Shown here in pieces: positions 3,001 to 45,184 of a stretch of 64,000 nucleotides of DNA. Position 1 is the stretch's first letter; every line of letters starts with the position of its first letter. The stretch spans positions 1 to 64,000 of the forward strand of contig CALUWC010000006.1 in NCBI GenBank assembly GCA_944324395.1. Reading direction: 5' to 3'. Made by a program: the position numbers and the translations under genes. This DNA comes from Candidatus Gastranaerophilales bacterium (GTDB taxonomy: Bacteria; Cyanobacteriota; Vampirovibrionia; Gastranaerophilales; Gastranaerophilaceae). The notes beneath the pieces were generated by a model, which was not told where the DNA came from, searched no databases, and was given only the letters and a program-made list of their open reading frames with translations.

Positions 3001-6000
3001 CAGGGTTAAGAGAAGAAACCCCTTTAACCTCAAATTTACCTTCTGACATAGAACCTAAATAATTAGTCAAATTATAGACGTTGTCAGCAGATTCAAACTC
3101 AAAGATTCTATTTTCATCTGTTTCAAGCTGGTTAACGAGTTTCAAGGTATCGCCGAGGCTTGTTTTAGTTTCTCCTTCTAGTCTGCGGATATCGTAAAGA
3201 TGCAGGGAATCGCTTTCTGTTTCCTGAGAAGCCAGATTTAATCTTCCCATAATATTATAATCCTGCTCGGTAACATTATAAACATCAGACCACATACTGT
3301 GAGCCTTAACCTCATCAATAGCAGAGATAACATGATCGGTACCTAATTGAATTTCCTGATTTAGGGCTGATTGCAGAGTTTCTGACAATTGAAGTTTTAT
3401 ATTACTATTTTGAGCATTAAGGATTTTAATTGTATATTCATCATCTTCGCTGATATCGGAAAGCAATCCGGTGAAATTCATATTTTCAAGAACGATAATA
3501 CCGGATGATGCACTTCCAACTGTAATTGTATCGGAAACCTGATTAGCGAGGTCAATATCAATTGTATAACGGGCCTGACCGGTATCGCTTGAATAGAGAT
3601 TTTCGATAACATAATTTTCGATAAGATCATTATCCATAGAGATGAAACCGTTTTGAGCAACGAAAGTTGAATCAGCGGAAGCGAAGGTATCAGTAGCGAA
3701 TGAGAAATTGCCGCCTGTTGAATCGCTGCTGCCGAGAATGACCTGAGCATTATTAACAGAACCGTTGATAGTAGAAGATTTAGAACCGTCCTGAGTTGTA
3801 ATATTGATGATACTGTTATCCGAACCTTGAATATTACCGTTAATAAAAGCACCGTCGAGGTTAACAACACCTGTAGAATCAGTAACGGTAACGACATTTT
3901 CCGCACCAGTCAATCTTATATCAGTCAGGTTGAGTTCGGAATTTTCACCGACTTCAAGAGCCTGATGGTTGCGGAAGTTAACAGTAGACATTTCATCACC
4001 TGAAACAGTACCCTTGATAGTAAATTCACCCTGAGCGATTTGTCCGATATCATCAGTAACGGTGTAAACCTCATCAGCTTTAGAAGATGAGAAGGTTTTA
4101 TCTCTGACATCTTCGGCTTTAGCGACAACTTTGAGGGTATCACCCAGGGAATCAAGCTGAGTGGTAGAATTTTCCCAATTTTCGACGAGGTCAAATTTCA
4201 CGCTGTCGTTTGCGGTATTAGTTGTGGCAAGTGACAGTTCGCCGTTCAAAACACCGTCGCGGTTTCTGTTGTAGTAAACATCAGAAAAGTCAGTGGTTTC
4301 TTTAACAATATCCTGTTCAATTCTTGAGATATCTTTGATGTAATAGTTGTTAAGATTTTCATCTAAAGCAAGCTGCAGGTTGCTGTTATGAGCGTCAATA
4401 ACCTGAACGGTAAATTCGCCTTCGCCGTCGTAGTCGTTGAGGAAGTTAACATTATCAAGAGTAACGGTTCCTTTAGAAGAAGTACTGTTAGCTTTGATAG
4501 TATCAGCTGTTTTTGAAGCCAAATCAAGGTCTAAAGAGTATCTGACATCTTCGGATGATTGCAGATTAGAAATGACATAATTTTCTACGGTGCCGTTATC
4601 AAGAGAAATTCTGCCGGCTGTAGCATTCAAACCGTTAGAATTCCGGAAGGTATCCTGAGCCATTGAAAGTGTACCGTCGTTGAGGATTACGTCAGCACCT
4701 GAAATTGTTCCGGTGAATTCCGTATCGCCGTTGATGTTAATAGTTGCAAATTGATAAGATTTTATATCACCGTCAATAATTGTATTATCAAGATTTAATT
4801 CAGCACCTGTACGGGCGGTTGACATATCAATAGCGAGATTATCTTTAGCACCTGTAATTTTAGTATTTGAGATATTCAAAGTATCGGTATTAGCCAGAGT
4901 GAAAGCTTTGTGGCCGTCAAAATCTATAACGGATAAAGTATCGCCTTCAAGACCGTTGATATTCATTGTACCCGCTGCGATAGTTGATAAATCCGTCGTG
5001 ACGGTGTAAGTTTGATTGGTATTAAAGTTAAAATTACGTATTTCATTGAGGGTTGATTTAGTGATTAAATCAAGACCGTCGTATGTTCTGTCTGCAAGAT
5101 AAGTGATACTGTCGTTTGTGGTTTTAGTTGTTGCAAGGGTGTAACCTTCGTTCTGGTGGTAGATTTTGTCGTTGTAAACGGTATCGCCGAGGTTTTCGAT
5201 AATATCTGTTTCAAGATGAATATTATCGGAATTAAGTTCCAATTGTATTTGATCATTTTTAGCGTTAATAATTTGAACGGTTTTATTGACATCAGATTCG
5301 CCGTAGTCGTTCAAATCGTCGACATAGATGATGCCTGTAGAATTGGCACCGACGGTAAAGTTGTCGGCTTCGCCAGAAGTTCTGTCAAAGTCGAGAGTAT
5401 ATTTTGCACTATCTTCTGAAGTAAATCTGGCAAAACTATAATCAAAAGCATCGTTATTAGCCATATCAATATTAACGCTGTCAGCGGTAACTCTTGTATC
5501 GACACCTGAAATAGCGTTATATAACTTGATAGTACCTGTTTCATCACCTGTTAAATATACATTGACATTCGAACCTGCCAGATCCTGAGCATCAATTCTG
5601 TCATACATAAATATTGTACCGCCGGTATTGGCATCGAGAGTCAAATGCGTATTGTCTAACAGATATATTGCCTGATTAACTTTTGTACTTTCATCACCGT
5701 TGACAATTTTATAGTTATCTTTAAATAAAGTTTCACCGCCGTTTTTGGCAACAATATCCAAACTTTGCCAGCTGCTCAAATATATAGCACCGCCTTGAGC
5801 ATAATCAGAAGATTTTGCATCAACATAGTTGCCGATAAAAGTTGAATTAACAATACCGTTGGTGAAATTTACATATGCGGTATTACTTCCGGCAATATAC
5901 AATGCCCCACCCAGAGCTCTCGCACTGTCAGATTTGGCATAGTTGTTTTTGAATATAACATTTTCGAAATTGCCAAATGTATATGTATTTGTATATGTAT

Positions 6001-9000
6001 TGGAGTTATTCGCATACATAGCTCCGCCACGGGCATTGTCAGTGCCGGAATGAGCATAGTTGTTCTCAAACAATACATCAGAAAAATTATCAATTGAAAC
6101 GGAACTAATATACATTCCACCGCCACCGCTATTAGTGCTGTGTTTGGCATGGTTATTTCTAAACGTTATATTAGAAAAATCACCTATTGAACCGCCGGAT
6201 TTGATAAAAGCACCGGCAGCACCGTTTTTACCTTCGACATAGTTATTTTCAAAGGTGACATTTTGCATTGTACCAATAGAATTGGTTGAATCGAAAGCAC
6301 CTACGGAAGCTTCACCTGAGGGGTTAATTATATAGTTGCCTCTGAAGATGGTATCTGTGATTGAACCTATCGGGCGGTCAGTAAATAATGCACCGCCATA
6401 TTTATTGTTTGTGCCGGTTGAATTTATTCCGTTATTTTCAAACAGTACGTCTTTGATATTTTCGACAGAAGAATTATTGGTTATATACAATGCTCCGCCG
6501 TAGATGGTTGCAGTTGAACTATTTGTTATTGTATTGCCGATAAAATCAGTGCCTGTAATATCTCCGACAGAAATCGCATTTAAGAATAACGCACCGCCGC
6601 TGGCTGTAGATTTATTATCCTGAAACAACGAATCTTTGATATTGACATTACTGCTGCGGTAATTGTATAAATATGCTGCTCCGCCTGCATAAGCCGCAGT
6701 GTTGCCGATGAATTTTGAATTTATTATATCACCCAGTTTTGTACCTTGTGTATAAATAGCCCCGCCTGTATATGCACTGTTATTTGAGAACGTAGTACCG
6801 ATTATCTCGCCGATTGAACCGCCGTTGGCATAAATAGCCCCGCCTGTATATGTAGTACCTGTTGTTAAGGAAACAGAGTTGTTATCAAACAGAGAATTTT
6901 TTATACCGCCTATAACTGAATTTGTGATAGCATATATAGCACCGCCATGGGAACTTGTTCTTGCTGCATCAACTGTATTATTAATAAATTTGGTATTTTC
7001 TATATTATGAATGGTAGAACTGTCAAGCGTCAATGCACCTCTGGAAGAACCTGCAGTTGATACTGATGAATTGTTGCGGAATACTGAATCTTTTATATTG
7101 GCAATAACAGACCCGCTTCTTAAAGCAACAGCTGAACTCATTGCAACATCACTTGCATCATTCAATATTGTTTTGTTATTTTCAAAAACAGTATTTATAA
7201 TCCCGCCGTTATATGTGCCGTCTGCGTTAGCAACGGTTGAGCCGACATCAACGTTAACCAAACTCAATGCCGAACCGACCAAATAAGGAGTCGAATACTG
7301 TGTATCAGAGTTTGTCAATTCGTTTGTGTTGTTTTTAAATTCCGAATCAACAATCTGCGAAATCGTACCGCTTTGAACATACACAATACCGGCAATTGTA
7401 TCTGCAGTAGTTGTATAAGAAGCCGAATTATTGACGATTGAAACGTTTACTAATCCGCCAGAAACCGTACCGTCTTCTGATACAGTACCTATTGAATTTG
7501 TTGCCTGAGTGGATTTGATAATAAAATCTCTAGCATTTTGAATAGTAACATCAGAAATATTGAGGGTTGTATTGGAATTTGTCATATTGAAGCCTGATGC
7601 ATAATTCATATCAATGGTTGATTTGGTACCTTTGTCAGCATCAGCAGCCCCGACGATATTCAAAACTCCTGAGGTTGTATCCCCAAGATCTCCTGCGGCA
7701 GAATTGCTTTCAATCATATCATCTGCAGGAACAGTATAAACATCATCTGCTGTTCTGAATCTGAAAAATCTTTCATCTTCCGTTGACATCTGGTTCCACG
7801 CTCTTAACAGATTTCCGGAGAGAGCTTCTTCTTCATCCCAGGTTGTCACAACGTCATAAACCCTTATACTGTCGTTTTCTGATACAGTTGTGGCAAGTTC
7901 AATCTGCCCTTTGACTATTCCGTCAGTATGGTATTTGTTGAAGTTTTCGTCAAAATAAACATCGGCTTTTGCTTCATCTTCTCTGCTTTTTTCAACAGCG
8001 ACACTGAAACTTCCGTCACCGTCTAATTGCAATTGAGCACCCGTTCCGCCGAACAGAACCTGTATAACTCCGTAATCGGTTTCGGTTTCAGGTGTCGGCA
8101 TACTGACAAAATTCAATTTATCTGCATTAAATTTGAATATTGCATCAGAAGCTGCATCAGAAAGAGTAATCTTGTCGGCTTTTGTAGTCGCAGCAAGATT
8201 AACATTAAATATTATATCGCCTGTTCCCGTTGCTTTATTTATGTTGAAGTTTCTGATTGTATTGTTGGCAACATCTGTAATCAAGGTTCCGTTATTTAAA
8301 TCAAGAGTACCTTCAATTGCTTTGTTAGTACTGGTACCTGCAGCGGTCATAGTTAGTTCTTTATCGATATGAGTAACTCCCGTGCCATGGATAGCTTTGT
8401 TTAGATTGCCTGACAAATACAAGTCGCCGTTATTTGTAACCCTATTGCTATTATTATCGTTTCTCAACAAATCGGCTTTTGCGGTCAAAACTCCGCCTTC
8501 CAATACATTAACGGCAGACTGGACACGTTTATCAGTTGTATTGACATTGCCGGCAATTGATACCGTTCCGTCTTTGACATCAAAATCAATATCCCCGTCC
8601 CCAAGGATTAGATTTGCCCCGCTTTTGATTTCAACATTAGTTGAACCTATATTATCCGCATCAATAGTTAATGTTGAATTGCTGTTAACTTGAAGTCTTG
8701 TAGTACTTATTATCTCGTTACTTATTACGCTGTTTGAAATCTCGGTTATGCCTGTTCCTGAAACAGTATACCCGTCAATTGTACCGCCCGTAAAACGAAT
8801 AGTACCCGTTGCATTGACATCAGATGCGATATTATCAGCATTGGTCTCAAACACCCCGCCTGTTACGGTTATTCCGCCTGCAACATCTATATAACCGTTG
8901 TTTGTAACCTTTGAACCATTGCTTCTGACCTGACCGTCACCTGTTATATTTATACCTTCGGCTATAGCAGATTTACCGGAACCATTATCTTGCACCTGCA

Positions 9001-12000: not shown

Positions 12001-12359
12001 AATATTTAACAGAAGACCCTTCGCCAAACTCGCTCTGCTTTAACCCGACTTCATAATAATGAACACCCTCAGTTATATTGTTCACATCAGAATATTTGAT
12101 TACATTAGGTGCTAAATTTTCCGGATCCTCAGGCTCAACCTCGGTTAGTGTATATCCGCTCTCAGGATAAACATAAGAAGTTCCCGGAACCTGCGTTCCT
12201 TCACCATTCAATTTATCTAATACGGGTGTCGGCACTGTACTATCCGCAGAGTACGCACCTGAGCCGTTCGTCAAGACTAAATACCCTGCAAACAGTGCTA
12301 CCGAGAGTCCTTTAAGGTTACCCCCCCCCCCGCAATGCCTTTTGCTGAGCGGTTTTCAT
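1..12359 (-). CDS. Giant Pmp/autotransporter-like repetitive surface protein, 3' truncated by window, phase-OFF
   Basis: One minus-strand frame (codon 5' bases at positions equal to 1 modulo 3) is open from 12322 to the left edge, about 4,107 codons. I read most of its triplets and saw no stop. It starts with a signal peptide (GNLKGLSVALFAGYLVL, then a cleavage-like AYSA). Two kinds of passenger sequence follow. Around 11400-11150 and 7450-5600 there are short repeats with FxNN and GGAI/GGAVY motifs, as in chlamydial polymorphic outer-membrane proteins and other right-handed beta-helices. Elsewhere there are Asn/Thr/Gly-rich strand repeats. A long module recurs about eight times. No membrane barrel is visible; it may lie beyond the left edge. 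In this sequence no ATG, GTG or TTG upstream of the G tract is in frame. Starts at 12410 or 12359 need 10 or 13 Gs; a start at 12393 needs 12. An adhesin-like, exported role is inferred. Confidence 0.8.
12321..12331 (-). repeat. Poly-G tract of 11 inside the 5' coding region of the giant surface gene
   Basis: The plus strand shows 11 consecutive C; the minus strand reads GCATTGC, then 11 G, then TAACCTTAAAGG. The tract lies between the candidate start codons and the signal-peptide hydrophobic core, the usual place for slipped-strand phase variation. With 11 G, the 12410/12359 frame stops at TAA immediately after the tract, and the 12393 frame stops at a TAG 21 nt after the tract. A sequencing or assembly error of one base is possible at such a homopolymer. 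Confidence 0.85.
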
Positions 12360-12593
12360 ACTTATATTTCCTGTTACGAATTCGTCTTTCCATATCCTAT
12401 CCTGTGCCATAAGTATATTACTTATACGCAGTTTGTTCATACTTCATTTGGTCGATTTTTAGGGCTTTCACCGGACAAGTCTGTTATAAACCGGCATTTT
12501 CTTATTATTTGTTCGGGCAGAACACTCGCCATCAGAATGTTAATGTAAAAGAGTATTATAAAGAGTATAGTTTTATATCACATGCATATATTT
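12360..12593 (-). promoter_or_regulatory. Leader of the giant surface gene with inverted repeats and alternative starts
   Basis: Between the promoter and the MKT start (ATG at 12359) lies a leader of roughly 230 nt with no other gene. Three ATGs occur: 12410 and 12359 in one frame, 12393 in another. A 7-bp inverted repeat (ATAAGTA/TACTTAT, 3-nt loop, 12409-12425) overlaps the first ATG. Upstream are a TGTTC/GAACA hairpin and a pair of CCGG segments. AGGA lies about 9 nt before the ATG at 12359. I could not match it to a known riboswitch class. Confidence 0.45.
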
Positions 12594-12622
12594 ATTATAA
12601 ACATGCTTCTTCCGTTTTTCAA
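12594..12622 (-). promoter_or_regulatory. Promoter of the giant surface gene
   Basis: On the minus strand TTGAAA (12622-12617) is followed after 17 bases by a perfect TATAAT (12599-12594). This is a strong vegetative sigma-70 pattern with the same -35 hexamer as the ycf23 and yebC promoters. The predicted start of transcription is near 12587. Confidence 0.65.
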
Positions 12623-21123: not shown

Positions 21124-21759
21124 TTACTTAGATAAATTAACCCCATGAACTCCCGGAGGCTGAATATACAACGGTTTCAATTCCTGCCATTTTGCAAATC
21201 CTTGCTTTAATTTATTATAAGATAGCTTAGCAAGAATTTCACCTAATTGATATTCTCCTTGTTGATAAGAGTCCCCCCCCAGAATTTTTTGCAGTTTGTC
21301 ATCTGTAATTAAATAATAATTTTCTTCAGATAGCAACTTCTTAACATTTTCCAAATCAACAGCACCTTTTACTGATCCGTCGATATAAAGATATGCACAG
21401 TTTTTACGGGCATCTAAAGCCACCATAGTTTTTTTATCCGTATTGTTAAGATGAGATAATATTTCAAGTGAAGTAACTCCGACAGCCTGAATATTTAACT
21501 GCTGAGCCATCATTCTCGCAACAGTAGTACAGGCTCTGATTCCGGTAAAACTTCCGGGACCGATATTTGTACCTATTGCATCAATATCTTCCGGTCTCAG
21601 ATTATTCTCTTTTAAAACCTCTTTTATTGTTGAGATTAAAAATGCAGAATGATATTTATTATCTTTATTGGTTACAATTTTTGACGTAAGAATTTTATCA
21701 TCATCTGCCAATGTCACATACATTTTATCTAAACACGTATCAAATACTAATATTTTCAC
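21124..21759 (-). CDS. tsaB: tRNA threonylcarbamoyladenosine biosynthesis protein TsaB
   Basis: The 211-residue ASKHA-fold protein has the TsaB signature GTNIGPGSFTGIRACTTVARMMAQ at residues about 63-86, and starts with an ILVFDTCLDK beta-strand instead of the more usual DTS. TsaB partners TsaD and TsaE to make t6A37 in ANN-decoding tRNAs. The gene overlaps tsaE by 4 nt at the end of a four-gene operon (yebC-dgc-tsaE-tsaB). Codons for LGGDS include eight consecutive G (21273-21280), a short homopolymer in an otherwise AT-rich gene. The C-terminus (PGVHGVN) is compatible with an intact frame. Confidence 0.85.
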   Translation of the reverse strand: MKILVFDTCLDKMYVTLADDDKILTSKIVTNKDNKYHSAFLISTIKEVLKENNLRPEDIDAIGTNIGPGSFTGIRACTTVARMMAQQLNIQAVGVTSLEILSHLNNTDKKTMVALDARKNCAYLYIDGSVKGAVDLENVKKLLSEENYYLITDDKLQKILGGDSYQQGEYQLGEILAKLSYNKLKQGFAKWQELKPLYIQPPGVHGVNLSK

Positions 21760-44478: not shown

Positions 44479-44512
44479 TTTGATTTATATTACATTTTAT
44501 GAAGGGAAACTA

Positions 44513-45184
44513 ATGAAAGAATTGCAACAAGCATTCACTCTTGCGGAAGTTCTTATAACTCTCGGAATTATAGGAATTGTTGCAGCCATGACAATTCCGA
44601 ATCTTATGACAAAATACTATGAAAAAAGAACCGTAAACCAGCTAAAAGAAACTCAATCCATAATTGCACAAGCAGTAAGAATGAGCGAAGAAGAATACGG
44701 AGATGCCTCGAGCTGGACAAACGAATACTGGACTAAAAAAGGTGCCGAAGAAATTGCTGAAAAATTAAAATATTCACTCAAAATTGCGACAGACTGCGGA
44801 ACCTCGGATCCCCAAAATGCTTGTATAAAAAAAACATATCTACGCTTGAACGGTCAAAACCATGACATAAATTATGCAACAGACAACAGATACTACAAAG
44901 TTGTACTGCTCAACGGTACCGCAGTATGGTGGAAAGCTACGGATAATGCAGAAAGAAGAAGCGGCTCATATATAGCATTTTGCATAGACACAAATGGAGC
45001 AAATCCACCTAATACATGGGGAAAAGATTTATTCGAATTTTCTTATGAAAACGGAGGTATAAGACCATTAGGGGCACCAAATTCTTATTACCCGTACAAA
45101 ACTCACTGCATTCCGAAAAATTCAACCGGGTACGGCTGTGCGTACTGGGTTTTGACAACTCAGAATATGAGTTATCTGCATTAG
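44513..45184 (+). CDS. Type IV pilin-like / pseudopilin protein
   Basis: The 223-residue protein begins MKELQQAFTLAEVLITLGII, a class-III prepilin signal with Glu at +5 of the mature protein. The residue before the cleavage Phe is Ala rather than the usual Gly. The hydrophobic helix runs to about residue 30. The body has several Cys (CGTSDPQNACIKK, CIDTNG, HCIPKNSTGYGCAYW), likely in disulfides, and a WKATDNAERRSGSYIAFCID segment common in this pilin group. I start at 44513, after AAGGGA, because this puts the short leader at residue 1. No assembly gene lies in the window. Confidence 0.8.
   Translation: MKELQQAFTLAEVLITLGIIGIVAAMTIPNLMTKYYEKRTVNQLKETQSIIAQAVRMSEEEYGDASSWTNEYWTKKGAEEIAEKLKYSLKIATDCGTSDPQNACIKKTYLRLNGQNHDINYATDNRYYKVVLLNGTAVWWKATDNAERRSGSYIAFCIDTNGANPPNTWGKDLFEFSYENGGIRPLGAPNSYYPYKTHCIPKNSTGYGCAYWVLTTQNMSYLH

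Follow-up and report, generated by a model that had tools for sequence, protein, structure and literature searches.

The most probable reading of a run of eleven G near the start of a giant open reading frame, held with a probability of roughly three in four on the strength of sequence comparisons, is that it acts as a slippage switch for a phase-variable giant autotransporter adhesin whose leader module is reused elsewhere and for which OFF is the commoner assembled state. Replication slippage would add or remove one G in the tract, and each such change would decide whether the signal peptide and a beta-rich passenger of more than 4,000 residues are read in frame with an upstream start. The giant gene is one of a set of prepilin and adhesin genes that share a reused leader consisting of a ribosome-binding site, an ATG, about 30 nt and G8–G14. 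We infer that slippage occurs in DNA within one population and that expression comes only from in-frame lengths.

The window, that is, the whole 64,000-nt stretch analyzed, has a GC content of 34%; MEL.A1 from the human gut has 32.9% GC and a genome of 1.9 Mb (PMC5877343). The tract lies on the minus strand (C11 on the plus strand) exactly where the sequence-only reading had placed it, and its claim that long G tracts are very rare here holds: this is the sole G or C run of at least nine in the window, and no 11-G run arose in 100 dinucleotide shuffles of it. The next longest run is C8 at 21273–21280; read as G8 on the minus strand, it falls in frame at about codon 160 of a TsaB-like gene (21124–21759), probably by coincidence.

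The tract is located between candidate starts and a signal-peptide-like stretch, in which a hydrophobic segment ending in GAYSA was recognized by eye. The open frame 3′ of the tract begins GGGGNLKGLSVALFAGYLVLTNGSGAYSADS and runs on for 4,118 amino acids until the contig ends, in agreement with the earlier estimate of about 4,107 codons in one frame. Since it reaches base 1 of contig C6, which is also base 1 of the window, the assembly cuts the gene short. With 11 G the giant frame extends back only to KPLSKRHC, and no ATG, GTG or TTG is found in that frame 5′ of the tract before a stop. As assembled, the sequence is OFF, which bears out the claim made earlier from the absence of an upstream in-frame start. 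To this we add two candidate starts in two different frames. Start A is 28 nt from the tract, resembling the 30 nt seen in relatives, and with 11 G reads MKTAQQKALRGGG up to a stop; start B is 62 nt 5′ of the tract and with 11 G reads MERRIRNRKYKYENRSAKGIAGGGVTLKDSR, likewise to a stop. Because the two starts are in different frames, an ON state could arise in two of the three classes of tract length. Thus, as at contingency loci, a long uninterrupted repeat is present within the 5′ coding region, and a change in its length shifts the frame. All Rfam matches near the leader were below gathering scores. The adjoining gene belongs to DUF561 (225 bits in a profile search), which we take to be the cyanobacterial and plastid Ycf23. 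Of 14 control genomes, Synechococcus elongatus and Thermotoga maritima matched this family, only one of the two above cut-off. Taken together, DUF561, the GC content and the genome size of 1.89 Mb suggest Gastranaerophilales. The genome of the window has no 16S gene in its assembly; that of the relative G001 has one of three cyanobacterial primer sites and lacks the other two, and was set aside as a guide to lineage.

Table. Features at the giant gene (window coordinates).
Feature	Position	Strand	Basis
G11 homopolymer, proposed slippage switch	12321..12331	-	run scan, shuffles
Leader from candidate start A	12332..12359	-	ATG 12359, AGGAAA ~8-13 nt upstream
Leader from candidate start B	12332..12393	-	ATG 12393, AGGATAGGAT upstream
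Signal-peptide-like stretch NLKGLSVALFAGYLVLTNGSGAYSA directly behind tract	12245..12319	-	by eye
Giant passenger open frame, ~4,107 codons, cut by contig start	2..12331	-	ORF translation
Chlamydia-type PMP repeat region	5888..7387	-	PF02415 60.4 bits; all-beta single-sequence model
Promoter-like TTGAAA-17-TATAAT, 5′ of giant gene	12594..12622	-	consensus match only

Searched over its full length against Pfam and NCBIfam, the giant protein had no match; only the repeat region, once cut out, matched a family, the PMP repeats (PF02415; 60.4 bits versus a cut-off of 20.6). A single-sequence structure model of this region was all beta (pTM 0.82), and a PDB fold search with the model gave no match at E≤0.001. 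No Pfam family besides PF02415 was found in the three pieces of the protein that were searched and the C-terminus is missing; for these reasons we do not file the protein as a Pmp. The window gene is cut before its C-terminus, and the orthologue in genome G002 ends in a barrel matching TIGR01414 (24.9 bits, cut-off 16). Judged by these features, the product is most likely a surface-displayed autotransporter adhesin, with adhesion and surface location both presumptive.

Orthologues differ in the state of the tract. The G031 orthologue (56% identity, GGGGGGAGGGG) and that of G003 have interrupted tracts and are in frame. The related G003 adhesins L065 and L066 are in frame as well. The G042 orthologue has G10 and is out of frame. 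In G029 the leader is the same as in G031, the tract is uninterrupted, and the assembly breaks exactly at it. The G002 orthologue has no tract and an intact ORF of 6,185 amino acids. A search of named genomes for further relatives yielded a single weak match, at 42% across about 45 residues and with no tract, in a rumen MAG of the Alphaproteobacteria; it was set aside. The frame of the giant gene as assembled, together with the decay of locked-OFF copies elsewhere, could be taken to mean that the tract is simply a frameshift in a decaying pseudogene. We regard this as highly improbable given the more than 4,000 stop-free codons beyond the tract and the orthologues that, at 45–56% identity, are open over thousands of codons. 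Intact ORFs and low dN/dS led us to abandon the broader notion that every tract gene is a pseudogene.

The genome has at least four surface genes with such a tract, of which the sequence-only reading saw just the giant gene. The 1.89-Mb genome contains only five G tracts of at least nine, against an expectation from base composition of 0.4 (0.01 for tracts of at least 11), and all five are followed by TAACC or TAGCC. Four of them open surface genes, namely three prepilin genes and the giant gene; in each of the four the tract stands between the start and the secretion or prepilin signal, and each is out of frame. The three prepilin loci share one layout, with a ribosome-binding site, ATG, 30 nt and G9 or G10, followed by an intact, out-of-frame ORF. 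The prepilin N-terminal methylation motif (PF07963/TIGR02532) is above cut-off in L062 and L063, both by TIGR02532, and just under the PF07963 cut-off in L064 (18.7 versus 21.2). The genome has 29 prepilin-like matches in all. Among the other prepilin-like genes whose 5′ ends were read, none has a G run of at least six, and many of the tract-less genes begin directly before the prepilin motif. One prepilin-like gene without a G tract is found in the window itself, at 44480–45184 on the plus strand (TIGR02532, 22.2 bits).

The fifth tract, a G10 at L061:1007–1016 (G000:C1:7306–7315), occupies the last codons of an acyltransferase-like ORF. It is followed by TAACCCTTGATAGCC..., which resembles the adhesin post-tract motif, and no long ORF was found behind it. 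It is perhaps a relic or a rearranged module.

The same stereotyped module, in which a ribosome-binding site, ATG, about 30 nt and G8–G14 precede a prepilin or adhesin, was found in relatives. G tracts of at least nine are present in 35 of 46 same-genus genomes. The pattern ATG-NNN-AAA-N21-G8 gave 194 matches, summed over a table of pattern matches in 191 family genomes, versus one for the reversed pattern; it occurs in 13 of the 41 genera of the family, and no match was found in 22 genomes from six other families of the order. Genome G001 contains about 40 tracts, mostly 5′ of prepilins and with the leader ATGCTAAAATTCAATCATAGCTTGAAAAAC, and in G004 the same leader type stands 5′ of both prepilins and an adhesin. 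The 2.2-Mb G001 genome has 121 prepilin-like matches, about one third with leader and G tract, an unusually large expansion.

Several further arrangements were observed. In G054, which belongs to another genus, leader and G11 form a short upstream ORF separate from the pilin (L251, L268, L274, L289); behind it are a conserved stretch with ACCTCC, which could pair with the ribosome-binding site of the leader, a hairpin GCCGTG..CACGG, and then the pilin gene with a start of its own. The module may thus have a second way of acting. L073 of G010 and the second tract of L249 (G211) are G12 runs in the 5′ part of acetyltransferase-like genes (by eye, of surface sugars), the L073 copy being in frame. 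Many tract pilins of G014, G025 and G004 (L076, L079, L217, L223 and others) have long N-terminal extensions, which separate tract and pilin domain and resemble dispersed repeats in translation (RHSERSEESPE, VILNLIQDL).

Tract lengths in related genomes, the counting of which had been proposed as a check, differ across paralogues and species (G8–G14). In G025, paralogues have 10, 10, 11, 12 and 14 G, and in G013 lengths range from 10 to 13 G. In G053, whose leaders are closely similar, a single G separates four in-frame copies (12 G) from six out-of-frame ones (13 G). Both in-frame and out-of-frame lengths are therefore seen among related loci, the comparison being across paralogues and species rather than at one locus within a species. 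When uninterrupted loci with a downstream ORF of at least 100 amino acids were pooled, 16 were in frame and 86 out (58 and 28 in the two other frames); 16 of 102 is below one third (p 8e-5, with paralogues not independent).

Assembly through long G runs is difficult: the G029 contig breaks at its tract, and G001 has NN inside one. An error of assembly or sequencing could accordingly have altered the tract length of a gene that is in truth constitutively in frame. We consider such an error very unlikely, because tracts of 8–14 G, mostly out of frame, are found in many independent genomes and loci, and because a tract miscounted by one would still be conserved in the module and prone to slippage.

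Loss of the uninterrupted run changes the pattern. Tracts interrupted by substitutions and followed by intact ORFs are in frame in seven cases and out in four (Fisher p 0.001), several interrupted, locked-OFF copies have decayed, and among out-of-frame copies in G013 decay affects five of seven interrupted versus none of eight uninterrupted ones (Fisher p 0.007); these Fisher p-values are guides only, because the paralogues are related, the interrupted tracts were drawn from among the matches listed for a few genomes, and a long ORF was a condition of entry into the uninterrupted set. Between pilin paralogues with tracts, the majority of which are out of frame, dN/dS is 0.11–0.33. As at contingency loci, ORFs are kept while OFF and states become locked after slippage is lost, the exceptions being the four interrupted copies that are OFF and intact. 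The variable lengths and frames in relatives, the pattern at interrupted tracts and the intact OFF ORFs with low dN/dS all support the interpretation of the tract as a slippage switch that had been put forward from the window.

In G001, G014 and G251 assembled lengths are nearly constant and OFF. Gene conversion among near-identical leaders, selection for the OFF state, a mutational mode or slippage at the RNA level could account for this. The last of these leads to programmed recoding, whereby slippage of RNA polymerase or the ribosome at the G tract would give every cell a steady low amount of product from an out-of-frame gene, and the length of the DNA tract would have no switching role. 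The constant out-of-frame lengths in G001 and G251, where ORFs are intact, favor recoding, which also predicts in-frame interrupted tracts and has a precedent in bacterial transcriptional slippage on homopolymers, for which A/T runs of nine are the best-studied case (PMC1088944). We nevertheless consider it unlikely, since paralogues whose leaders are similar differ in DNA tract length, with one-base ON/OFF pairs in G053. Both out-of-frame phases occur, so there is no fixed frameshift direction, and a fixed −1 frameshift signal was dropped as a candidate on the same grounds.

DNA slippage as the switch would make the module a family-wide device, a stereotyped, reusable leader with many targets in a host-associated, probably non-photosynthetic cyanobacterial lineage. 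Tentatively, one modular leader-plus-poly-G cassette, common to unrelated surface genes, might subject prepilins and giant autotransporters, as many as about 40 in a genome, to stochastic control with OFF as the default throughout this family of uncultured gut bacteria (probably Gastranaerophilaceae), each cell then displaying its own small subset of pilins and adhesins. Mixed tract lengths are predicted in metagenomic reads. Because the assembled state is usually OFF, annotation pipelines would miss or truncate tract genes.

Slipping repeats are known as a source of surface variation chiefly in pathogens. The literature search found no paper coupling phase variation with Gastranaerophilales; the lone paper mentioning both Melainabacteria and phase variation appears to concern flagellin diversity. 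The mechanism is already known, and it is the reused leader cassette and the lineage that appear to be new. Campylobacter tracts are not known to share such a leader. Campylobacter jejuni NCTC11168 has 29 poly-G/poly-C contingency loci of at least seven (PMC4965091). The two systems have in common a set of long G tracts per genome with the reading frame setting ON or OFF; they differ in that many paralogues and several gene families here use one leader, whose ATG stands at a near-fixed distance from the tract. For the pmp genes of Chlamydia pneumoniae, homopolymer phase variation has been hypothesized (cited in PMC4514472). The giant gene is similar, encoding a putative PMP-repeat surface protein with proposed homopolymer switching; unlike the pmp genes, it belongs to another lineage, and the profile match is to the short PMP repeat only, the rest being without a Pfam family. 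NalP and MspA of Neisseria meningitidis are phase-variable autotransporters with coding poly-C tracts of 6–15, whose length varies between strains and at which some assemblies break (PMC3723659), as happens here in G029. Like them, the giant gene probably encodes an autotransporter and has a coding homopolymer, of which only in-frame lengths are here proposed to be ON. In contrast to NalP and MspA, the passenger is far larger and has PMP repeats, and the leader-plus-tract module is common to prepilins; the likeness is one of mechanism.
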